Assembly: GCA_031287575.1 (NCBI GenBank)
Contig: JAITSV010000062.1
Location: 62,001 to 126,000 of the forward strand
DNA: 64,000 nucleotides
Direction: 5' to 3'
Source: Desulfovibrio sp.
Lineage (GTDB): Bacteria > Desulfobacterota > Desulfovibrionia > Desulfovibrionales > Desulfovibrionaceae
In this document: one piece after another, positions 48,453 to 57,467 of the stretch
Layout of the letters: the number at the start of each line of letters is the position of its first letter
How positions within the stretch are numbered: position 1 is the first letter of the stretch
Notes under the pieces: model-generated
Told to the model about the DNA's origin: nothing
Databases searched by the model: none
Seen by the model: only the letters and a program-made list of their open reading frames with translations
Program-made: the position numbers and the translations under genes

Positions 48453-49134
48453 GCCACCTCCATTCCGGTGCATCGCCCCGCGCGGGCGTCTTTCTCCCCT
48501 CACCCGGCGCGGGCCTTTCCCTTGCGCGAACAAGTGCTCCGCCAAGTGTCCCGCTATCGCCGCATACCGTGCCGCGAAAGTTCATGCAAGCATTCCGTGA
48601 AACATCGGATTGCATGGCGGCATCACACCATGGCATCACATCGTAATACGGCAGAACATGCCGTTGCGGCGCATTCCTGAATGCAAAGCAAACACCGTGC
48701 CTTGCAAGTGCGCACTGCAACACGTGCATGCGCCCGCCCTGGCGCGTCGCCACATGACGCGTTGCATTCCACCCCATCTGCCGCGTGATCCGGCAACGCC
48801 CGCTCCGTGTCGCAACGGCGACAGGCGGTGCCGCACCGGCGCGGCAAGGCCGGGCAAAGGCCCCGCGCCCGCGAAAAGGGCATGCGCGCGCCCCGTCATG
48901 CAAACGTAACCTTCGGAATATCATTGTAACGTTGCCGCCACCGTCCAGCCATCAAGGAAAGGCGTGGCCGCGTGTACATGACCGGAACGTCACGTTCCGC
49001 AACCGCCGTACGGGGTGAAAGCATCAGGTCCCGCCATGCCTGGACGGATGTGACGGCAGGCGCCGGGACACGGCGGGGCACGGCAACGGCCCGCCACGGA
49101 CGGCCGCAAGCGACACAGCATCGGGGTACGCATC
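48453..49134. other. 680-bp divergent intergenic region
   Basis: Lies between the leftward PDZ lipoprotein and the rightward GAK cassette. No gene or known RNA is recognised. GGCATCACA occurs twice at 48619-48627 and 48632-48640 (13-bp period), and several TGCATG/GTGCA dyads lie around 48585-48735. It must carry the cassette promoter, but I cannot locate one with confidence. Confidence 0.4.
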
Positions 49135-49827
49135 ATGGGCAGCAGAAAGACCTCGTTTTCCATCACCCGGCAGGAACTGCCCGTCGTGCTGCGGCGCATC
49201 GCCGACGCCCTGGAGCGGGGCGACACCGTCGGGACGCCGGGTGCCGCCACGCCGGAGGGCGACACGGACCCGCTGCTGGCCGAGGGGCTGGGAAATTTCC
49301 GCAAGCTCAAGCTCAACGCCAAGCACGCCTTCGGCCAGATGCAGGTGGTGCTCAAGGTCAAGACGCCCGACGCGGCTGCCGCCACTGCCGACGGAACGGC
49401 GGGCACCGGGGCGGGGGCGCGCCATTCCGCCCGTCCGGTCCACTCGGCCCGCCCCGCAGGCCGCCCCTCGTACAAGTCGCTGAAAAAGCGGATGCGCACG
49501 TCGTTCAAGGCGTTGCGCCAGGCCGTGCAGGCCGGGGCGATGCCCCCGCCGCGGGCCGCCGCCTCGTTTTTGTCCGATTCGCTGCTGATGGTGGAATACC
49601 CCGGCTACGGCGACGAGCATTACGCGGCATACCGCACGGCCACAGAGGCCCTGCGCACGGCGCTGGAGGCCGTGGGCACGGACGACACGCCCGCCGACAC
49701 GGCATATCCCGCCCCCGCCCCGGCCGGGGCTGGCCTTCCCGTGGCGTTGCCCGTCACGCCGGAAATCCGCCACGCCGTGGAAGAACTCTACCGGCTCATG
49801 GTGCTGTGCCATGACCGCTACAAATAG
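49135..49827 (+). CDS. GAK-system XXXCH-type protein
   Basis: A 230-aa protein, first gene of the cassette. The N-terminal part (RKTSFSITRQELPVVLRRIADALE, then GNFRKLKLNAKHAFGQMQVVLKVK) resembles an amphi-Trp-like strand-helix arrangement. A linker rich in Ala, Gly and Arg follows. The C-terminal half is helical and ends in LYRLMVLCHDRYK, the CH motif near the C-terminus that gives the NCBIfam family its name. The Cys-His pair may bind a metal or cofactor, but this is unproven. No enzyme motif is visible. The start at 49135 has GGGG upstream. The next gene begins ten bases after its stop. Confidence 0.7.
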   Translation: MGSRKTSFSITRQELPVVLRRIADALERGDTVGTPGAATPEGDTDPLLAEGLGNFRKLKLNAKHAFGQMQVVLKVKTPDAAAATADGTAGTGAGARHSARPVHSARPAGRPSYKSLKKRMRTSFKALRQAVQAGAMPPPRAAASFLSDSLLMVEYPGYGDEHYAAYRTATEALRTALEAVGTDDTPADTAYPAPAPAGAGLPVALPVTPEIRHAVEELYRLMVLCHDRYK

Positions 49828-49837
49828 GCCGTCCGCC

Positions 49838-51184
49838 ATGAAGATCGTCAAGCCCGTGGCGCGCCAGTGCGCCGATCTGGAAGCCCGGTTGCGGGACCTG
49901 TCGGAAGACGTCACCGAGCAGGAGGACGCCCTGTTCCGCTCGCTGATCGTCACCGACCTGGCCCCCTGGCAGGCGGAGCAGGTAACCATGCCCCCGTCCG
50001 TGCACGAGTCCCAGCGCGAGGTGCTGGCCACGCACTGGCACCCGGAATTCGTGCCCATGGGGCTGATCCGCCAACGCATCGAGGCCATGTTTCCGGGGCG
50101 CGAGGACCAGTTGATCATTCCCACCCAGCACAATGAGTTGACCAGCTGGGACGGCTACACCGGCGTGGAGGTGGACTGCTACTCCAGCGGCTTCAACCAG
50201 AAGGTGCAACTGCTGCTGCATTTCGAAAGCCGCCGCGTGGCCTCCGCTCCAGCGAACGCGCCAGCGGTCCCGATCCCGCCAGCCGCGCAGGTGGCGCACA
50301 GCCACCCGAGCGCGACTGACCTCACCGGCACCACCGGTTCCACCGGTCCCGCGCCCGGTGGCGCCCCGCAGCCCGCCTCTTCCCTGCTGTCCGGCGACGG
50401 GGCGCACGACAGGGCTCACACCGGGGCGCACACCCTGCGTTCCATGCTGGCCCACACCCGCAAGTACCGCGCCTCGCAACTGTACGACTACGTGCGCGCC
50501 GTGGTGCACCCCGACGACAACGTGGCCGGACCCGCCGTGCGCGAAACCGGCGCCGACGACGACGTGCTGGCCTTCGCCCGGCTGATGACCGGCAAGTTCG
50601 CCCGCCTGCTGGAAACGCACGGGGCGGCCCTGCCCGAGGACATGATCAAGAACAAGCTGCTGCGCAACTTCATCGACGGGCTGCGCGGCGACTGGGAAGA
50701 CACCTTCATCGACCGGGTGCAGGCCTACCTGAAGGCGGTGAAGGAACAGGTGAAGCGGCGCTTTCCGCTCGACTACTTCTACCGGGCCACGGAATTCATC
50801 GAGGAAGCGCACGGCCTTGGCGGATGCGTGGTCATTCCCCACCCGGAGCAGTTCTGGCCCATCCTGCTCGCGGAATACGACGTGGACGGCTACGAGGTAT
50901 GGAACCCCCAGTCCAGCCGGTACACCGAATTCCTCATTTCCGTGGTCAACCGCAAGAACCGGGGGCCGGGCCTTTCGCGCCGCGAAATCCTGGTGTTCAT
51001 GGGCGACGATTGCCACCTGGGCGAAAAGACCCGCCCGCGCGACCAGCAGGACACGGAAAAGGCCGCCCGCGAGGTGGGCCTGCAACCGGCCTGGGACGAC
51101 CCCGCCGTGCGCAAGCGCCTTTCGTTGACCGGGGTGAGCCGCGCCAGCGTCATCCGCGATTACCGGGCGCGCCTGGCGGGTTAG
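49838..51184 (+). CDS. PHP-like metal-dependent protein of the GAK cassette
   Basis: A 448-aa protein. Motifs consistent with a PHP-type phosphoesterase fold are present in order. They are THWHPEF (about residue 65), PTQHNEL (about 95), GGCVVIPHPEQFW (about 330), VDGYEVWNP (about 350), and FMGDDCHLGEK (about 388), which resembles the final D-x-H of PHP domains. The middle has a variable Pro/Thr-rich linker (about 140-205) and a helical region. This assignment is by eye and rests on motif order rather than close similarity. The start is the ATG at 49838; an in-frame ATG at 49811 would overlap the upstream gene. A 176-bp gap separates it from the amphi-Trp gene. Confidence 0.6.
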   Translation: MKIVKPVARQCADLEARLRDLSEDVTEQEDALFRSLIVTDLAPWQAEQVTMPPSVHESQREVLATHWHPEFVPMGLIRQRIEAMFPGREDQLIIPTQHNELTSWDGYTGVEVDCYSSGFNQKVQLLLHFESRRVASAPANAPAVPIPPAAQVAHSHPSATDLTGTTGSTGPAPGGAPQPASSLLSGDGAHDRAHTGAHTLRSMLAHTRKYRASQLYDYVRAVVHPDDNVAGPAVRETGADDDVLAFARLMTGKFARLLETHGAALPEDMIKNKLLRNFIDGLRGDWEDTFIDRVQAYLKAVKEQVKRRFPLDYFYRATEFIEEAHGLGGCVVIPHPEQFWPILLAEYDVDGYEVWNPQSSRYTEFLISVVNRKNRGPGLSRREILVFMGDDCHLGEKTRPRDQQDTEKAAREVGLQPAWDDPAVRKRLSLTGVSRASVIRDYRARLAG

Positions 51185-51360
51185 GTCCAACTCGTCCTTT
51201 CGCCCGTTGGCGTTGGGAACAGCCCGCGCAGGGGGGAAAAGCCGCCGCGCGCGCATCCCCACCCCGGCCCCCAACGCCCCCCGTCGTCACCCGACCTTCA
51301 CCCGCGCGGCACGCCGCCGCCCCCGGCGGACGGCATACACGAAGCAGACAGGAGACACCC

Positions 51361-51633
51361 ATGAGCTCGGAAGAAAAGTTCGTCTTCGAATCGTTGCAGG
51401 ACTGCGAATCCATCCGCGCCTTTCTGGAGGCTCTCACCGAGGGAGTGGGCAGCAAGCATCTGGTGCTGTCCTCCGGCGGCGAGCGCATCGAACTGTACCC
51501 GCAAGGCCTCTTGCAGGTGGAAGTGAAGGCCCGGCGCAAGGGCGGGTCGAGCAAGGTCAGCCTGAAGCTGGAATGGAAGGACGCCCCCCGCGTGGAAACC
51601 ACCGACAGGACGCTGTCCGTCAGCAGCAACTGA
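51361..51633 (+). CDS. Amphi-Trp domain protein, first copy
   Basis: A 90-aa protein consisting of one amphi-Trp domain. It has a helix (CESIRAFLEALTEGVGS), two strands (HLVLSSGGERIELYP), then VEVKARRKG and KVSLKLEW, where the Trp marks an amphipathic strand. The second copy at 56917 shares the helix-EALxxG, ARRKG and LEW pattern, so the two form a paralogous pair within one cassette. The start at 51361 follows AGGAGA. No enzymatic residue is seen; a binding or adaptor role for the cassette enzymes is plausible (inference). Confidence 0.88.
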   Translation: MSSEEKFVFESLQDCESIRAFLEALTEGVGSKHLVLSSGGERIELYPQGLLQVEVKARRKGGSSKVSLKLEWKDAPRVETTDRTLSVSSN

Positions 51634-51690
51634 TGCCCACGGCATGACCGGGGCCGCAGCGCCACGCCCGGCGAGTGCCGGGGCGACACC

Positions 51691-51753
51691 GGCCCGGCTG
51701 GCCCGGCTGGCACGGCTGGCGCGACTGGCAACACTGGCCCGGCTGGCACGGCC
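51691..51753. repeat. 9-bp tandem repeat, seven units
   Basis: Units of GGCNCGGCT (variants GGCGCGACT and GGCAACACT) run seven times in the 209-bp gap between the first amphi-Trp gene and the PhoU-kinase gene. Confidence 0.85.
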
Positions 51754-51842
51754 AACGGCGCGGGCGAAGCCGGCAACGCCGGCCTGACGGCCACGGCCCC
51801 GCATTCTTCAACGGACAGTTCCAAAGGCGAGATGCTGCGCAC

Positions 51843-53564
51843 ATGATCACCTTCGAAGGACTGAGCGAAAACTTCAGGTTCCTGGTGCTCGAGGTTTCGG
51901 GCCAGCTGCGCGCCACGCACGAATTCATGCGTGCCCCCACGCGCGAGCTGTTCGACCGCATCACCGGGCGCGACGACTACATCGACAACCTGAAGACCAT
52001 CATCGAGAACAAGTGCTTCTCGCGCATCCACACGGACAACTCGCTGGACCGGCGCGAGATACACCGCATCCGGGCCATCCACACCATTGCCGTGAACCTG
52101 GAGCGCATCGCCGACTTCTGCGTGAACATCCTGGGGCAGATGGCCCACCTTTCCGACCCCGGCAGGCTGCGGGCCGACGAATACGACCCCATCTTCGCGG
52201 AGATAGCGGCCAGCCTGAACCGCATCATTCCCGCCCTGGAAAAGGAAGACCTGCCCGCCGCGCTGGCCATCTGCCGCAGCGAATACGAGCTGGACCGGCT
52301 GTACGAGGCGGTGTTCCACCGCACCCTGGCCGAAATGTCCGACGGCCGCAGCGTGCACGACCGCATCACCACCATCTTCATCTTCCGGTACCTGGAGCGC
52401 ATCGGCGACAGCCTGCTGAACGTGGGCGAGGCGCTGATCTTCAGCGTGCTGGGTGAAAAGATAAAGATCAAGCAGTTCGAAGCGTTGCAAAAAACGCTGT
52501 CCACGTCCGGCTTTGGCGATTCGCTGTCGGACATCGACTTTCGCTCCATCTGGGGCACCCGGTCCGGCTGCCGCATAGGCCGGGTGGAACGGGTGCGCAA
52601 TGCGCGCAGCTCCACCGGCGACGCGGAAGGCGGGGGCGCCCCCGGCGGGCTTGGCTCCATCTACAAGCAGGGCAACAAGAAAAAGATCCTCAAGGAGCGG
52701 GACAACATCGCCCGCTGGTCCACCCTGTTCCCCAACCTGGTGCCGGAAATCTTCGGCTACCACGAGGACGACGATTCCGCCGCGCTGCTGGTGGAGTTCC
52801 TGCAGGGGTGTACCCTGGACGAAATCGTCCTGACTGGCGACGTGGAGATATTGCAGAACGCCATGTTCGTGCTGCTGCAAACCCTGCACGAAATCTGGGA
52901 AAAGACGGCCACGCCCGGCCCGGTGGCCACCGACTTCATGCGCCAGATGCGTTCGCGCATGGAGGCCGTGTTGCAGGTGCACCCCGGCCTGCGGCGCGAG
53001 GGGGTGGACCTGTGCGGCGCGGGGGCCCTGTCCACCGAGCAGCTCATCGACCGCTGCGAGGCCATCGAAAAGACCCTGCCCGCGCCGTTCACCGTGTTCA
53101 TCCACGGCGACTTCAACGTGAACAACCTGGTCTACGACCATGCCCGGCAGGCCGTGCGGTTCATCGACCTGTACCGCTCGCGCGACTGTGACTACGTGCA
53201 GGACATTTCGGTGTTCCTGGTCTCCAACTATCGGCTGCCGGTGTTCGAACCCGCCCTGCGCGAGCGCATCCGCTGGGTGATGCGCGAATTCATGCTGTTC
53301 GCCACCGGGGTGGCCGCCGCGCGCGGCGACGCCACCTTCCAGGCGCGGCTGGCCCTGGCGCTGGCCCGCTCGCTGTACACATCCACGCGGTTCGAACTGA
53401 ACCACCACTTCGCCAAGGACATGTACCTGCGCTCGCACTACCTGATGGAGCGCATCGTGGCCCATCGCGGCCCGTGGGAAAACTTCCGCCTGCCGGTAGA
53501 GGTGCTGGACTGCGGCTGCAACGCCATCATGAGGGAGGAAACGCCGTGCGCATTGGCGTCGTAG
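51843..53564 (+). CDS. PhoU-like / aminoglycoside-phosphotransferase-like kinase fusion
   Basis: A 573-aa two-domain protein. Residues 1-215 are a PhoU-like helical bundle (HRIRAIHTIAVNLERIADFCVNI, later FRYLERIGDSLLNVGEALIF). After a Gly-rich linker, residues about 270-560 form an APH/choline-kinase-like domain with the catalytic HGDFNVNNLVY and the metal-binding FIDLYRSRDCDYVQDI. PhoU domains usually bind metal clusters or sense phosphate-transport complexes, and APH domains phosphorylate small molecules. Such a fusion suggests a phosphate- or metal-responsive small-molecule kinase. The ATG at 51843 has a weak upstream GGCGAGAT. The downstream ATP-grasp gene overlaps its end by 19 bp. Confidence 0.85.
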   Translation: MITFEGLSENFRFLVLEVSGQLRATHEFMRAPTRELFDRITGRDDYIDNLKTIIENKCFSRIHTDNSLDRREIHRIRAIHTIAVNLERIADFCVNILGQMAHLSDPGRLRADEYDPIFAEIAASLNRIIPALEKEDLPAALAICRSEYELDRLYEAVFHRTLAEMSDGRSVHDRITTIFIFRYLERIGDSLLNVGEALIFSVLGEKIKIKQFEALQKTLSTSGFGDSLSDIDFRSIWGTRSGCRIGRVERVRNARSSTGDAEGGGAPGGLGSIYKQGNKKKILKERDNIARWSTLFPNLVPEIFGYHEDDDSAALLVEFLQGCTLDEIVLTGDVEILQNAMFVLLQTLHEIWEKTATPGPVATDFMRQMRSRMEAVLQVHPGLRREGVDLCGAGALSTEQLIDRCEAIEKTLPAPFTVFIHGDFNVNNLVYDHARQAVRFIDLYRSRDCDYVQDISVFLVSNYRLPVFEPALRERIRWVMREFMLFATGVAAARGDATFQARLALALARSLYTSTRFELNHHFAKDMYLRSHYLMERIVAHRGPWENFRLPVEVLDCGCNAIMREETPCALAS

Positions 53565-54487
53565 GGACAAAGGGCGGCTGGTCGTCGGAGTTGCTGGCCG
53601 ACACCGTGGGCAGGGCCACCGGGCACCGCCTGCTCATCGAAATGGACAAGGTGCGGCTGGACCTACCGTCGGGCCGCTGCCTGTACGAAGGCACCGACCT
53701 TTCCACGCTGGATGCGCTGATCATCAAGAAGATCGGCGCGTGGTACTCGCCCGACCTGCTGGACCGGCTGGAAATGCTGCGTCTGCTCAACGAGCGCGGC
53801 CTGCCCGTGTTCTCGGCCCCGCTGCGGGTGCTGCGGGTGCTGGACCGGCTGAGCTGCACCATCACCCTGCAGTCGGGGGGCATCCCCATGCCGCCCACCA
53901 CCATCACCGAAGACGTGGACCACGCCGTGCAGGCCGTGCGCGAATACGGCCGGGCCGTGTTCAAGCCGCTGTACTCCACCAAGGCGCGGGGCATGACCAT
54001 CATGGAGGACGGCCCCGGCCTGCGCGAGAGGGTGGCGGCCTACAAGGCCGACCATTCCATCCTGTACATCCAGAAGACCATCGAGCTGGAAGGCGGGCAG
54101 GACCTGGGCGTGGTGTTTCTGGGCGGCAGGTACCTGACCACCTACGCCCGCTGCAGCACCAACGGCAGCTGGAACACCACCACGATCAACGGCGGCAAGT
54201 ACGCCGCCTTCGAGCCCCCGGCGGAGGTCATCGCCATGGCCCAGCGGGCGCAGGCCCTGTTCGGGCTGGACTTCACCTGCGTGGACGTGGCCCTGACCGC
54301 ATCCGGCCCGTACGTTTTCGAGGTGTCGGCCTTCGGCGGGTTCCGGGGTATTCTGGAAACCAGCGGGCTGGACGCCGCGCAACTGCTGCTGGAACACGTG
54401 CAGCGCTGCCTGGCGGGCGGCGGCTGCGGAGGCGCCCCGGCCATCTCGTCCCCCATCCCGCCCGCCGCCATGGAGCCCGCCGCATGA
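53546..54487 (+). CDS. GAK-system ATP-grasp enzyme
   Basis: A 313-aa ATP-grasp ligase of the RimK/glutathione-synthase class, expected to join a carboxylate to an amine through an acyl phosphate. The N-terminal domain is VRIGVVGTKGGWSSELLADTV. The central domain shows AVFKPLYSTKARGMTIM (ATP-binding lysine and Gly-loop) and LYIQKTIELEGGQDLGVVFLGGRYL. The C-terminal VDVALTASGPYVFEVSAFGGFRG holds the metal-binding E-x-N/S site. The start is a GTG at 53546 with GGGAGGAA upstream, inside the end of the kinase gene. It ends coupled (ATGA) to the HprK-like gene. The substrate is unknown. Confidence 0.88.
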   Translation: MRIGVVGTKGGWSSELLADTVGRATGHRLLIEMDKVRLDLPSGRCLYEGTDLSTLDALIIKKIGAWYSPDLLDRLEMLRLLNERGLPVFSAPLRVLRVLDRLSCTITLQSGGIPMPPTTITEDVDHAVQAVREYGRAVFKPLYSTKARGMTIMEDGPGLRERVAAYKADHSILYIQKTIELEGGQDLGVVFLGGRYLTTYARCSTNGSWNTTTINGGKYAAFEPPAEVIAMAQRAQALFGLDFTCVDVALTASGPYVFEVSAFGGFRGILETSGLDAAQLLLEHVQRCLAGGGCGGAPAISSPIPPAAMEPAA

Positions 54488-55623
54488 GCGCCACCGCCGC
54501 CCGTACCCTGGCCCCGCACCTGACGCGCGCCGCACTGGCCGCCGACGTGCGCGGCTGGTACCCCGCCAGCCACGAACTGGCCCTGCGCATCAACGACGTG
54601 TACGTGCGCGTGGCCACCAACGCGCCGGAACTGCACGCTAAACTGGTCCGCTACTTCGGCGAGTTCCTGGCGCCGGACGTGCCGGAACACGGCGTGCCCG
54701 CCGGGGCGGAGGTCATCCGCGTCACCGCGCACGAGGCCCCGCGCCGCGACTGGGGGCTGCCCTTTACCGCCAGGCAGCCCGACGCGGGCAAGCGCAAGAT
54801 CAAGGAAGAATGCCTGGACCTGCCGGACGGACGCCTGGTGCACAAGCGCCTGACGGGCATGCTCTTCGCCTTTGGCGGGGGCGACAACGTGGCCGTGGGC
54901 CCTTGCACCGCCAACGACAATCAGGTGGTCAACTTCATCAACAATCGCTACCTGGAACTGATGCTGAACCGGGGCTGTCTGCTGGGGCACGCCGCCGCCG
55001 TGTCCCACGCCGGGCGCGGCCTTGCCGTGGCGGGATTCTCCGGCATGGGCAAGTCCACACTGTCCCTGCGGCTGATGAGCCGGGGCGCCACCTTCGTCAG
55101 CAACGACCGGGTGCTGGTGGCGAGCAACGGCAACGACGCCCCGCGCTGCCTGGGCATTCCCAAGCAGCCGCGCATCAACCCCGGCACCATCCTGGCCAAC
55201 CCGGACCTTGACCCGGTGCTGACCGAAGAAGAGCGCATCACCCTGTCCGCCCTGCCCCCCGACGACCTGTGGCACCTGGAACGCAAGTACGACGCCATCA
55301 TCGCCGACTGCTTCGGGCCGGGGCGGTTCATCCCGCAGGCGCCGCTGGACGCGCTGGTGATCCTGAACTGGCGCCGCAACACCGGCGAGCCGCTGCGGGT
55401 GCGCATGGACAAGGCGCAGGACCGGCCCGATCTCTTGCCCGCGTTCATGAAGTCCACCGGGGCATTCTATCTGCCCGCTCCCGGTGGCTGGCAGCAGGAC
55501 CCCGGCCTTGCGGAGTACGCGCGCGGGCTGGCCGGGGTGCCGGTCATCGAGCTGTCCGGCGGGGTGGACTTCGACGCGGCGGCGGATGCCTGCATGCACT
55601 TCCTGTCCACCGGTACGCTGTAG
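54484..55623 (+). CDS. HprK-related kinase B
   Basis: A 379-aa protein with a C-terminal HPr-kinase-like P-loop domain. The nucleotide motif is VAGFSGMGKSTLSLRLMSRG, preceded by LLGHAAAVSHAGRG and followed by FVSNDRVLV (Walker B/catalytic Asp region) and later GIPKQPRINPG. The N-terminal 150 residues are family-specific. It lacks the HPr kinase signature of true HprK and is known from GAK cassettes rather than from PTS loci. It overlaps the ATP-grasp gene by four bases, so the two are co-translated. It probably phosphorylates a serine or a small-molecule hydroxyl in the pathway (inference). Confidence 0.88.
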   Translation: MSATAARTLAPHLTRAALAADVRGWYPASHELALRINDVYVRVATNAPELHAKLVRYFGEFLAPDVPEHGVPAGAEVIRVTAHEAPRRDWGLPFTARQPDAGKRKIKEECLDLPDGRLVHKRLTGMLFAFGGGDNVAVGPCTANDNQVVNFINNRYLELMLNRGCLLGHAAAVSHAGRGLAVAGFSGMGKSTLSLRLMSRGATFVSNDRVLVASNGNDAPRCLGIPKQPRINPGTILANPDLDPVLTEEERITLSALPPDDLWHLERKYDAIIADCFGPGRFIPQAPLDALVILNWRRNTGEPLRVRMDKAQDRPDLLPAFMKSTGAFYLPAPGGWQQDPGLAEYARGLAGVPVIELSGGVDFDAAADACMHFLSTGTL

Positions 55624-55634
55624 GGCGGGCGCGC

Positions 55635-56852
55635 ATGGCCCGGCTGCTGCTGACCCGGCAGGTCACCCTGCCCGACCCGGTGAAGGTGGAACGCTTTACC
55701 CGCGCGCCCGACCTTGGGCCGCGCGTGCTGTTCTTCAGCGGGGGCACGGCCCTGCGCGACGCCTCCACCGACCTCGCGCGGTACACCCACAACTCGGTGC
55801 ACCTGATCACCCCGTTCGACTCGGGCGGCAGTTCCGCCCGGCTGCGCCAGGCCTTCGCCATGCCCGCCGTGGGCGACCTGCGCAACCGGCTGATGGCCCT
55901 GGCCGACCGCAGCCTGCATGGCAACCCCGCCGTGTTCCGGCTGTTCGCCTTTCGCCTGCCCCCGGAAGGTGACCGGGCGGAGCTGGCCGACACCCTCACC
56001 GCGCTGGCCCAGGGCAGGCACCCCCTCGTCCGGGCCATACCCGACCCGCTGCGCAAGATCGTGCGTTCGCACATCGGCGCGTTCATCGACCACGCCGGAC
56101 TGGACAAGGACGGCGGCTTCGACCCGCGCGGGGCAAGTCTTGGCAACATCGTGTTGGCTTCCGGCTACTTGCAGAACCGCCGTCACCTGGACCCGGTGAT
56201 CTTCATCTTTTCCAAGCTGGTGCAGGTACGCGGGGTGGTGCGGCCCATCGCCAACGCCGACCTGCACCTGGCCGTGAAACTGGCGGATGGCCGGATCATC
56301 GGCGGGCAGCACCGCTTTACCGGCAAGAACGGCGCGCCGCCGCTCACCGCCCGCATCGACGATATCTGGCTGTGCAAATCGCCCGACGACACCGCCCCGG
56401 CGGACCTGCGCCTGCGGGCCAAGGTGCGCGAACTCATCGCCACCGCCGAACTGGTGTGCTACCCGGTGGGCAGCTTCTATTCCAGCGTCATCGCCAACCT
56501 GCTGCCCTCGGGCGTGGGCGCGGCGCTGGCCGCCACCCGCTGCCCCAAGGTCTTCGTGCCCAACACCGGCAACGACCCGGAACTGCTGGGCCACACCCTG
56601 GAATTGCAGGTGGATCGGCTGCTGCGCCACCTGCGCAACGACGCGCCGGACGCCATAACCCCGCGCGACGTGCTGGACTTCGTGCTGGTGGACGGCAAGG
56701 GGGGCCGCTACCCCGGCGGCGTGCCCAAAAGCCTGACCCAGCGCCTGGCCGGGCTGGGCATCCGCGTGCTGGACTGCCCGCTGGTGAGCCGCCAGTCGGC
56801 CCCGTACCTCGACGAACGCCTGCTCAATCCGGTGCTGCTCTCGCTGTGCTGA
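55635..56852 (+). CDS. GAK-system CofD-like protein
   Basis: A 405-aa protein of the CofD/YvcK superfamily. It has the N-terminal LFFSGGTALRDASTDLARYTHNSVHLITPFDSGGSS (partial; the nucleotide/phosphate loop of CofD), GDLRNRLMALADR, ASLGNIVLASGYL, PIANADLHLAVKLADGRIIGG, and the C-terminal VCYPVGSFYSSVIANLLPSGVG. CofD transfers lactyl phosphate to the F420 precursor, and YvcK-type homologues bind UDP-sugars. Which activity applies here is unknown. No F420 genes are in the window. The ATG at 55635 is 11 bases after the kinase stop. Confidence 0.87.
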   Translation: MARLLLTRQVTLPDPVKVERFTRAPDLGPRVLFFSGGTALRDASTDLARYTHNSVHLITPFDSGGSSARLRQAFAMPAVGDLRNRLMALADRSLHGNPAVFRLFAFRLPPEGDRAELADTLTALAQGRHPLVRAIPDPLRKIVRSHIGAFIDHAGLDKDGGFDPRGASLGNIVLASGYLQNRRHLDPVIFIFSKLVQVRGVVRPIANADLHLAVKLADGRIIGGQHRFTGKNGAPPLTARIDDIWLCKSPDDTAPADLRLRAKVRELIATAELVCYPVGSFYSSVIANLLPSGVGAALAATRCPKVFVPNTGNDPELLGHTLELQVDRLLRHLRNDAPDAITPRDVLDFVLVDGKGGRYPGGVPKSLTQRLAGLGIRVLDCPLVSRQSAPYLDERLLNPVLLSLC

Positions 56853-56916
56853 CGCCCCACGGGGCACCACGCGCCGCCGCACCGGCAACAACCGCTACCA
56901 ACCGATGGAGGTTCCC

Positions 56917-57399
56917 ATGGACGGTGAAAAGCAGAAGGTGAGCATCGAACAGCACATGGCCTATGCCGACGCGGTGGCCTACCTGGAAGCACTGCTCAAG
57001 GGCTTCAAGGAAGGACGCATCGTGGTGGAGCGCGGCGGCGAGTCCGTTGTGCTCACCCCGCCCCAGAACGTGAACGTGGAAATCGAGGCCCGCCGCAAGG
57101 GCGACAAGCAGAAGTTCTCGCTGGAACTGGAATGGAACGCGGCCCCCGTCGTGGCGGAAGACCCGCTGACCATCTCCGCCGACCTGCCCAAGACAGACGC
57201 CGCGAAGCCCTGCGACAAGGGCTGCCCCACCGCAGCGGCCCCGGCGGGAGCGGCCAGGCCCGCCGAAGCCAAGCCTGCCGCACCTGCGCCTGCCGCCAGC
57301 CAGCCCAAGCCTGAATCCGCCAAGCCCACCGAACCGGCCAAGCCCACCGAACCGGCCAAGCCAGCTCCCAAGGACGCGCCCAAGCCCGGCGGCAAGTAG
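56917..57399 (+). CDS. Amphi-Trp domain protein, second copy, with Pro/Ala/Lys-rich tail
   Basis: A 160-aa protein. Residues 1-85 are the amphi-Trp domain (AVAYLEALLKGFKEGRIVVE, IEARRKGDKQKFSLELEW). The tail begins with CDKGC, a short Cys pair, and continues with about 60 residues rich in Pro, Ala and Lys, including the repeated KPTEPA. The tail looks like a flexible or cell-wall-spanning linker or a tether to other cassette proteins. The ATG at 56917 is chosen over one four codons upstream because GGAGG sits just before it. It is the last gene before the cassette terminator. Confidence 0.87.
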   Translation: MDGEKQKVSIEQHMAYADAVAYLEALLKGFKEGRIVVERGGESVVLTPPQNVNVEIEARRKGDKQKFSLELEWNAAPVVAEDPLTISADLPKTDAAKPCDKGCPTAAAPAGAARPAEAKPAAPAPAASQPKPESAKPTEPAKPTEPAKPAPKDAPKPGGK

Positions 57400-57429
57400 C
57401 CCCGCGTCAAACCGGACGGAACAGACACG

Positions 57430-57467
57430 AAGGCCGCCCGCCGGAACATTCCGACGGGCGGCCTTTT
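57430..57467 (+). terminator. Intrinsic terminator of the GAK cassette
   Basis: AAGGCCGCCCG (57430-57440) pairs perfectly with CGGGCGGCCTT (57455-57465), followed by TTTCATTTC. It lies 31 bp after the last cassette gene. Confidence 0.92.

Follow-up and report, generated by a model that had tools for sequence, protein, structure and literature searches.

The GAK gene cassette of a Desulfovibrio genome and its probable place in phosphate physiology

The window analysed here, a stretch of 64,000 nucleotides from Desulfovibrio sp. (contig JAITSV010000062.1, positions 62,001 to 126,000), harbours a cassette of eight genes that is a typical example of the GAK system, which has a name but no characterised function, and that probably belongs to phosphate physiology. 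The genes lie on the + strand between 49135 and 57399, are closed by a strong terminator and encode, in this order, an XXXCH protein, a PHP-like protein, a first amphi-Trp protein, a PhoU-kinase fusion, an ATP-grasp enzyme, the HprK-related kinase B (HprK-B), a CofD-like protein and a second amphi-Trp protein (X-P-a-U-G-K-D-a, see Table 1). The five GAK/amphi-Trp models of NCBIfam (TIGR04354, TIGR04355, TIGR04356, TIGR04357 and TIGR04358) are all above their curated cut-offs, with the same families in the same order as in the NCBIfam GAK system, of which the window hence carries a full member. These five models do not extend to the PhoU-kinase or the PHP enzyme, nor to the phosphate context, and no paper on the GAK system or its families was found in the open-access PMC literature. 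The families were previously names without function, and the placement in phosphate physiology is what is new here. An earlier, sequence-only reading of this DNA had described eight same-strand genes ending at one terminator, with which the coordinates and the 16-pair stem agree, and its GAK naming was right; the phosphate link was not seen by it.

Inheritance of the cassette as a unit

The GAK ATP-grasp and HprK-B are each over cut-off in 20 of the 297 genomes of the phylum, and these are nearly the same genomes: the two sets differ only in one that has the ATP-grasp alone (G118) and one where the ATP-grasp is fragmentary and falls below the cut-off (G078). Families living mostly apart, the outcome that the sequence-only reading had named as fatal to a common system, is hence not what is found. 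HprK-B is also present in 6 of 229 genomes from the class of an Onishia genome and in 2 of 240 from the class of a Tropicimonas genome, and in none of 14 control genomes. Loci as far from Desulfovibrio as those of Zixibacteria and Eisenbacteria bins show X-P-a-U-G-K-D-a again, which argues that the clustering is not due to chance (the relatives' loci come from a scan of named genomes in which 80 of 519 relatives were kept).

Gene content was counted in those 50 of 81 loci that are flanked by 5.5 kb or more on each side, all of them selected for an ATP-grasp resembling that of the window. Of these, 49 have PhoU-kinase, 48 amphi-Trp, 46 HprK-B, 45 PHP, 41 CofD and 33 XXXCH, all seven families being together in 32; in a set of 10 carriers, 4 pass the cut-off of the CofD-GAK model. 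These counts define a core of PhoU-kinase, ATP-grasp, HprK-B and amphi-Trp. The system can do without CofD and XXXCH, and certain lineages have lost or replaced one or another of CofD, XXXCH and PHP. The eight families thus behave as one co-inherited system without being an obligate core of eight, and the earlier view that two kinase-type enzymes, a phosphoesterase and small binding-type proteins form one system is supported.

Two genomes (G213 and G277) carry the cassette split in two (L145/L147 against L146/L148), each half with its own HprK-B paralogue; one half contains ATP-grasp and CofD, and the other XXXCH, PHP, amphi-Trp and PhoU-kinase without ATP-grasp. Such splitting would suit genes brought together by history, each with a job of its own, an explanation which is very improbable indeed given the almost perfect co-occurrence of ATP-grasp and HprK-B in the 297 genomes and the gene order kept across phyla. 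A defence system was also considered and rejected, PADLOC giving one weak match only (E 0.054). The "nitrate cluster" of PMC4001038, considered on account of ATP-grasp, is a different locus, of PEP-synthase type.

Phosphate genes, PhoB-type boxes and polyphosphate kinases

Genes of the pst system or stand-alone PhoU genes are found in 12 of 108 GAK loci, the neutral expectation being well under 1% as estimated from one pst operon per ~4 Mb. In Desulfovibrio gigas (G788), a genome with a 100% match to desulforedoxin, the cassette lies directly after pstB-phoU on the same strand; this locus has a run of N (L164:13220-14296) between amphi-Trp and PhoU-kinase. The ornithine-lipid synthase OlsF adjoins 7 of the 81 loci, and according to passages of PMC5193443 OlsF mutants of D. 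alaskensis G20 are impaired at limiting phosphate. In 16 of 108 loci, other phyla included, the vicinity of GAK holds a conserved glycosyltransferase of ~800 residues whose N-terminus is PHP-like (e.g. L069:3734-6151), and a gene of the low-molecular-weight phosphatase/arsenate-reductase type is often near GAK as well (L054, L061, L071, L076, L077, L083 and L045).

The OlsF, pst and glycosyltransferase neighbours, together with the G20 mutant phenotype, would also fit a phosphate-starvation economy, i.e. salvage from, or rerouting of, a phosphorylated metabolite or lipid head group at low phosphate and not storage. We consider this quite unlikely, as a set of two or three kinases speaks for net phosphorylation and the operon is found without these lipid genes too.

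For PhoB of D. vulgaris, an excerpt of PMC3333781 gives the half-site consensus (c/t)GT(n)AC, with a 4-bp spacer. Perfect (C/T)GTNAC-N5-(C/T)GTNAC pairs, which have an 11-bp period, are found upstream of 13 of 53 GAK operons, where 0.49 are expected (Poisson P about 1e-14; the expectation follows from the remainder of these loci, where 981,298 bases contain 26 such sites). The upstream regions used were at least 150 nt long and free of N runs, and among the repeat periods tried (10, 11, 20 and 22) a broad signal appeared at 11 alone. Compared with shuffles, perfect boxes at this period occur in 11 of 42 regions against 0.1 expected. Loci from one genus do not count as independent, and the 13 positives amount, by judgement, to about five groups. 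As a positive control, the same box precedes pstS/phoB in L092, L101 and L100. The window shows CGTCAT-N5-CGTAAC (48894-48910) and a further TGTAAC (48925-48930), within a footprint that is near-invariant in four Nitratidesulfovibrio loci. Taken as sequence motifs, these boxes suggest that the cassette may be under PhoB-type control in several lineages. The classical E. coli PHO box (CTGTCAT repeats) was tried as well and gave no signal in Desulfobacterota, with a mean best score of 9.3 against 8.8 in shuffles.

The distribution of polyphosphate kinases (PPK) offers a further connection. Among the 159 genomes of the window's family, GAK (scored by HprK-B) occurs in 76, PPK1 in 29 and both in none; PPK2 occurs in 19, all among the 29 with PPK1 and none with GAK. 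For the exclusion of GAK and PPK1, Fisher P is 4e-10 when genomes are counted and 0.014 when genera are, PPK1 being limited to 8 of 44 genera, of which only one has both, in different species. Neither PPK1 nor PPK2 is detected by NCBIfam or Pfam in the cassette, nor are they found in G000, and D. gigas, with GAK beside pst, lacks both. In Desulfobacterota other than this family, PPK1 is rare whether GAK is there or not, so that this set cannot test the exclusion (80 of 100 listed genomes were searched, those left out being 20 GAK-negative controls). GAK as a general substitute for PPK1 was rejected, since PPK1 is present in 7 of 8 alpha/gamma-proteobacterial carriers. With PPK1/PPK2 metabolism the cassette shares a phosphate-linked context and a CHAD protein beside two HprK-B loci; it differs in having no PPK domain and in being apart from PPK1 in the window's family but alongside it in alpha/gamma-proteobacteria.

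In those two loci, from one alpha- and one gammaproteobacterial genome, the CHAD protein and a ParA-type ATPase adjoin HprK-B (Table 1), perhaps as a pair that positions polyphosphate granules; CHAD is presented as a polyphosphate-binding domain in parts of PMC6537752.

Predicted activities of the cassette proteins

Seven of the eight proteins match NCBIfam or Pfam models, the PHP-like protein being the exception. That core genes overlap or nearly abut, as claimed in the sequence-only reading, holds for ATP-grasp, HprK and CofD: the ATP-grasp gene overlaps PhoU-kinase by 19 nt and HprK by 4 nt, and 11 nt separate HprK from CofD. XXXCH and PHP overlap by 17 nt. Elsewhere the spacing is wider, with 176 nt from PHP to amphi-Trp and 209 nt from there to PhoU-kinase.

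Table 1. Features of the GAK cassette in the window, and CHAD/ParA pairs of two other HprK-B loci.
Feature	Position	Strand	Basis or remark
Conserved upstream footprint with PhoB-type half-sites	48894-48930	+	Conservation among Nitratidesulfovibrio loci
XXXCH protein	49135-49827	+	TIGR04358 match
PHP-like protein (predicted PHP-fold phosphoesterase, helical insertion)	49811-51184	+	Predicted fold, metal ligands
Amphi-Trp protein 1	51361-51633	+	TIGR04354, PF20068
PhoU domain + aminoglycoside-phosphotransferase-like kinase fusion	51843-53564	+	PF01895, PF01636
GAK ATP-grasp enzyme, GTG start	53546-54487	+	TIGR04356
HprK-related kinase B (HprK-B)	54484-55623	+	TIGR04355
CofD/YvcK-like protein of GAK system	55635-56852	+	TIGR04357
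Amphi-Trp protein 2, Pro/Lys/Glu-rich tail	56905-57399	+	TIGR04354
Intrinsic terminator, 16-pair stem, T-rich tail	57430-57465	+	Matches on - strand too
CHAD/ParA pair	L144:4149-5741, L144:3405-4142
CHAD/ParA pair	L140:4187-5764, L140:5782-6534

The PhoU-kinase passes both of its Pfam models and matches, by sequence profile, PhoU and APH(3') structures; the APH catalytic residues H421, D423, N428 and D442 are invariant in 25 of 25 sequences. HprK-B scores 557 bits with TIGR04355 (cut-off 200) and its P-loop GxSGxGKST is invariant in 24 of 24. Judged from these residues, the active sites of both kinases are intact. HprK-B resembles HPr kinase/phosphorylase in the P-loop region, and the cassette, like the HPr pair, includes a small partner protein. 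The alignment, however, is short (50-60 residues, E 2e-5 to 2e-3), the curated model TIGR00679 is not passed (30 bits against a cut-off of 240) and the cassette has no HPr.

The PHP-like protein has no match in NCBIfam, Pfam or PDB profiles, curated PHP models included, and its structure model (mf83601c294e4, mean predicted local distance difference test score, pLDDT, of 81.7) gave no match at E <= 0.001 in Foldseek alone. Aligned on PHP enzymes with VIA-align, the model reaches Z 15.0 for 3o0f (root-mean-square deviation, rmsd, of 3.5 over 242 residues), Z 13.7 for 2yb1 (rmsd 3.6, 240 aligned) and Z 13.6 for RNase AM, unrelated rows being at Z 4.3 and below; the absence of a family from these rows was not counted as evidence. 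The metal ligands of the HxH, H, E, H, D, H set (H75, H77, H107, E120, H344, D399, D400 and H402) are invariant in 26 of 26 sequences. By predicted fold and invariant ligands the protein is a PHP-fold metal-dependent phosphoesterase with an intact active site, which gives substance to the possible phosphoesterase of the earlier reading.

The amphi-Trp proteins 1 and 2 score 72 and 82 bits with TIGR04354 (cut-off 31), and protein 1 shows six conserved basic positions in the last strands. XXXCH scores 71 bits with TIGR04358 (cut-off 40). The model of a relative (mean pLDDT 88.6) contains a small alpha/beta domain related to amphi-Trp (hhalign 89%) and a four-helix bundle, the latter matching cytochrome c' by profile (E 0.002). 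Cytochrome c' also gives the best Foldseek matches, at an E of only 0.01, and the alignment with 2j9b (Z 11.5, rmsd 3.3, 100 aligned) is in the range common to helical bundles. In place of CxxCH the family has KxxCH, with the first Cys in 0 of 38 sequences, Lys in 33, His in 38 and the second Cys in 37, which is not the pattern of a haem site; the loss of the first Cys in all 38, mostly to Lys, explains the odd family name. As modelled, XXXCH begins with an amphi-Trp-like domain, followed by a helical bundle that resembles cytochrome c'. The idea that amphi-Trp and XXXCH are positively charged overall was dropped, the mean charges being near zero (-0.2 and +0.9) and the conserved Lys/Arg clusters local only.

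In alpha/gamma-proteobacterial operons PHP is absent, and Nudix, SixA-Nudix, histidine phosphatase and ApaH-like phosphoesterase are gained, all families that act on phosphoanhydrides. The SixA-like histidine phosphatase is fused to Nudix inside the GAK operon (L110:12045-13064 and relatives), in an order reversed relative to mycobacterial MutT1. These enzymes bear on the possibility of a protein-phosphorylation switch, in which HprK-B would phosphorylate the ~90-residue amphi-Trp protein, PHP would reverse this and the PhoU-kinase would set the level by phosphate status, no small-molecule product being made. The relation of HprK-B to HPr kinases suits such a switch, as does an HPr-sized amphi-Trp near 48 of the 50 covered loci. 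We regard it as somewhat unlikely, as across 45 amphi-Trp sequences a single Ser (S11) comes close to invariance and no His is invariant, and as the Nudix, ApaH-like and SixA-Nudix enzymes of other lineages suit phosphoanhydrides more than phosphoserine.

The ATP-grasp enzyme scores 441 bits with TIGR04356 (cut-off 300) and matches PF08443, its nearest solved relatives being RimK and LysX. The E-x-N metal motif and the Arg of RGG are hallmarks of RimK-type ligases; here the former is E-x-S and the latter is absent, each in 20 of 20 sequences. Hence, while fold and overall sequence are like those of RimK, LysX and MptN, two hallmark residues are changed throughout and we do not call the enzyme a ligase, as the sequence-only reading did: the RimK-like sequence stands, the ligase activity is doubtful. 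An ATP-grasp kinase of the inositol-pyrophosphate type was rejected, since the 14 solved relatives include neither ITPK nor PPIP5K. The CofD-like protein scores 520 bits with TIGR04357 (cut-off 340) and has the CofD fold in the Pfam search; its nearest solved relatives are YvcK/UPF0052.

A cofactor pathway comparable to tetrahydromethanopterin/F420 biosynthesis, with an MptN-like ATP-grasp ligating an amino acid and the CofD-like protein transferring a phospho group, would agree with the presence of the CofD fold and with the MptN model, which at 129 bits is second to the GAK model on the ATP-grasp. This is improbable, given the two changed ATP-grasp motifs and a CofD-GAK that is nearer YvcK than CofD and missing from several carriers. 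Eukaryotic inositol pyrophosphate metabolism, the domain of PPIP5K and DIPP, is alike in combining an ATP-grasp with histidine-phosphatase and Nudix partners (as in the alpha/gamma version) and in its tie to phosphate; it differs in that the GAK ATP-grasp is RimK/LysX-like by sequence and that no inositol substrate is indicated.

Proposed role in phosphate homeostasis

Two kinases with intact sites and a phosphoesterase suggest a pair of activities that build and remove a product. We propose, tentatively and at slightly less than even chances, a phosphate-homeostasis system with a specific kinase/phosphoesterase mechanism and a phosphate-rich product. The PhoU half of the fusion would couple the cassette to phosphate status, and its kinase half, with the HprK-like kinase and possibly the ATP-grasp, would build a densely phosphorylated anionic product, probably containing a phosphoanhydride. 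The PHP enzyme would take phosphate off it, a task that would fall to the Nudix, histidine-phosphatase and ApaH-like enzymes in alpha/gamma-proteobacteria, and amphi-Trp and XXXCH may bind or scaffold the product via their conserved basic surfaces. Control would be of PhoB type in several lineages, and in Desulfovibrionaceae the cassette occurs only where polyphosphate kinase is missing.

Several observations weigh against this reading. The period-11 pair of the window matches at 9 of 10 positions and is not a perfect box, none of 17 regions in a second set of GAK upstream regions has one, and no clear PHO box was seen in 9 alpha/gamma operons (weak at best). A stricter gene-by-gene control gives boxes in 10 of 52 against 16 of 246 (P 0.006), several of the 16 control positives sharing a GAK or pst promoter. 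Of the 159 family genomes, 54 have neither GAK nor PPK1; the genus-level exclusion could reflect clade or lifestyle, and lifestyle may be its true cause since the PPK1-bearing members often have small genomes. PPK1 and GAK also occur together in G304, as in 7 of the 8 alpha/gamma carriers, and CHAD is found in 0 of the 159. Finally, the nearest folds of the PHP enzyme act on nucleotides or RNA, and the ATP-grasp is RimK/LysX-like and not inositol-kinase-like.

A more specific version, which we consider unlikely, is that GAK makes and remobilises a non-polyphosphate phosphoanhydride store, a densely pyrophosphorylated sugar or polyol, in PPK-less bacteria, and that in D. gigas it is the pathway of glucose pentakis(diphosphate). 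The electron-dense granules of D. gigas, said to have been described as polyphosphate by Jones and Chambers in 1975, reportedly contain glucose pentakis(diphosphate) according to Hensgens in 1996, and we know of no biosynthetic genes for this compound. With GAK beside pst and without PPK1 or PPK2 in that species, the cassette is a candidate for this pathway; since GAK is present in 48% of the family, carriage by D. gigas alone is weak support. Phosphate-replete D. alaskensis G20 forms phosphorus-rich, DAPI-positive granules, as described in passages of PMC5193443.

If the phosphate reading is true, a gene set common in sulfate reducers would represent a second bacterial route to phosphate reserves or signals, outside PPK, and would be a candidate source of the phosphorus-rich granules in Desulfovibrio that lack PPK.

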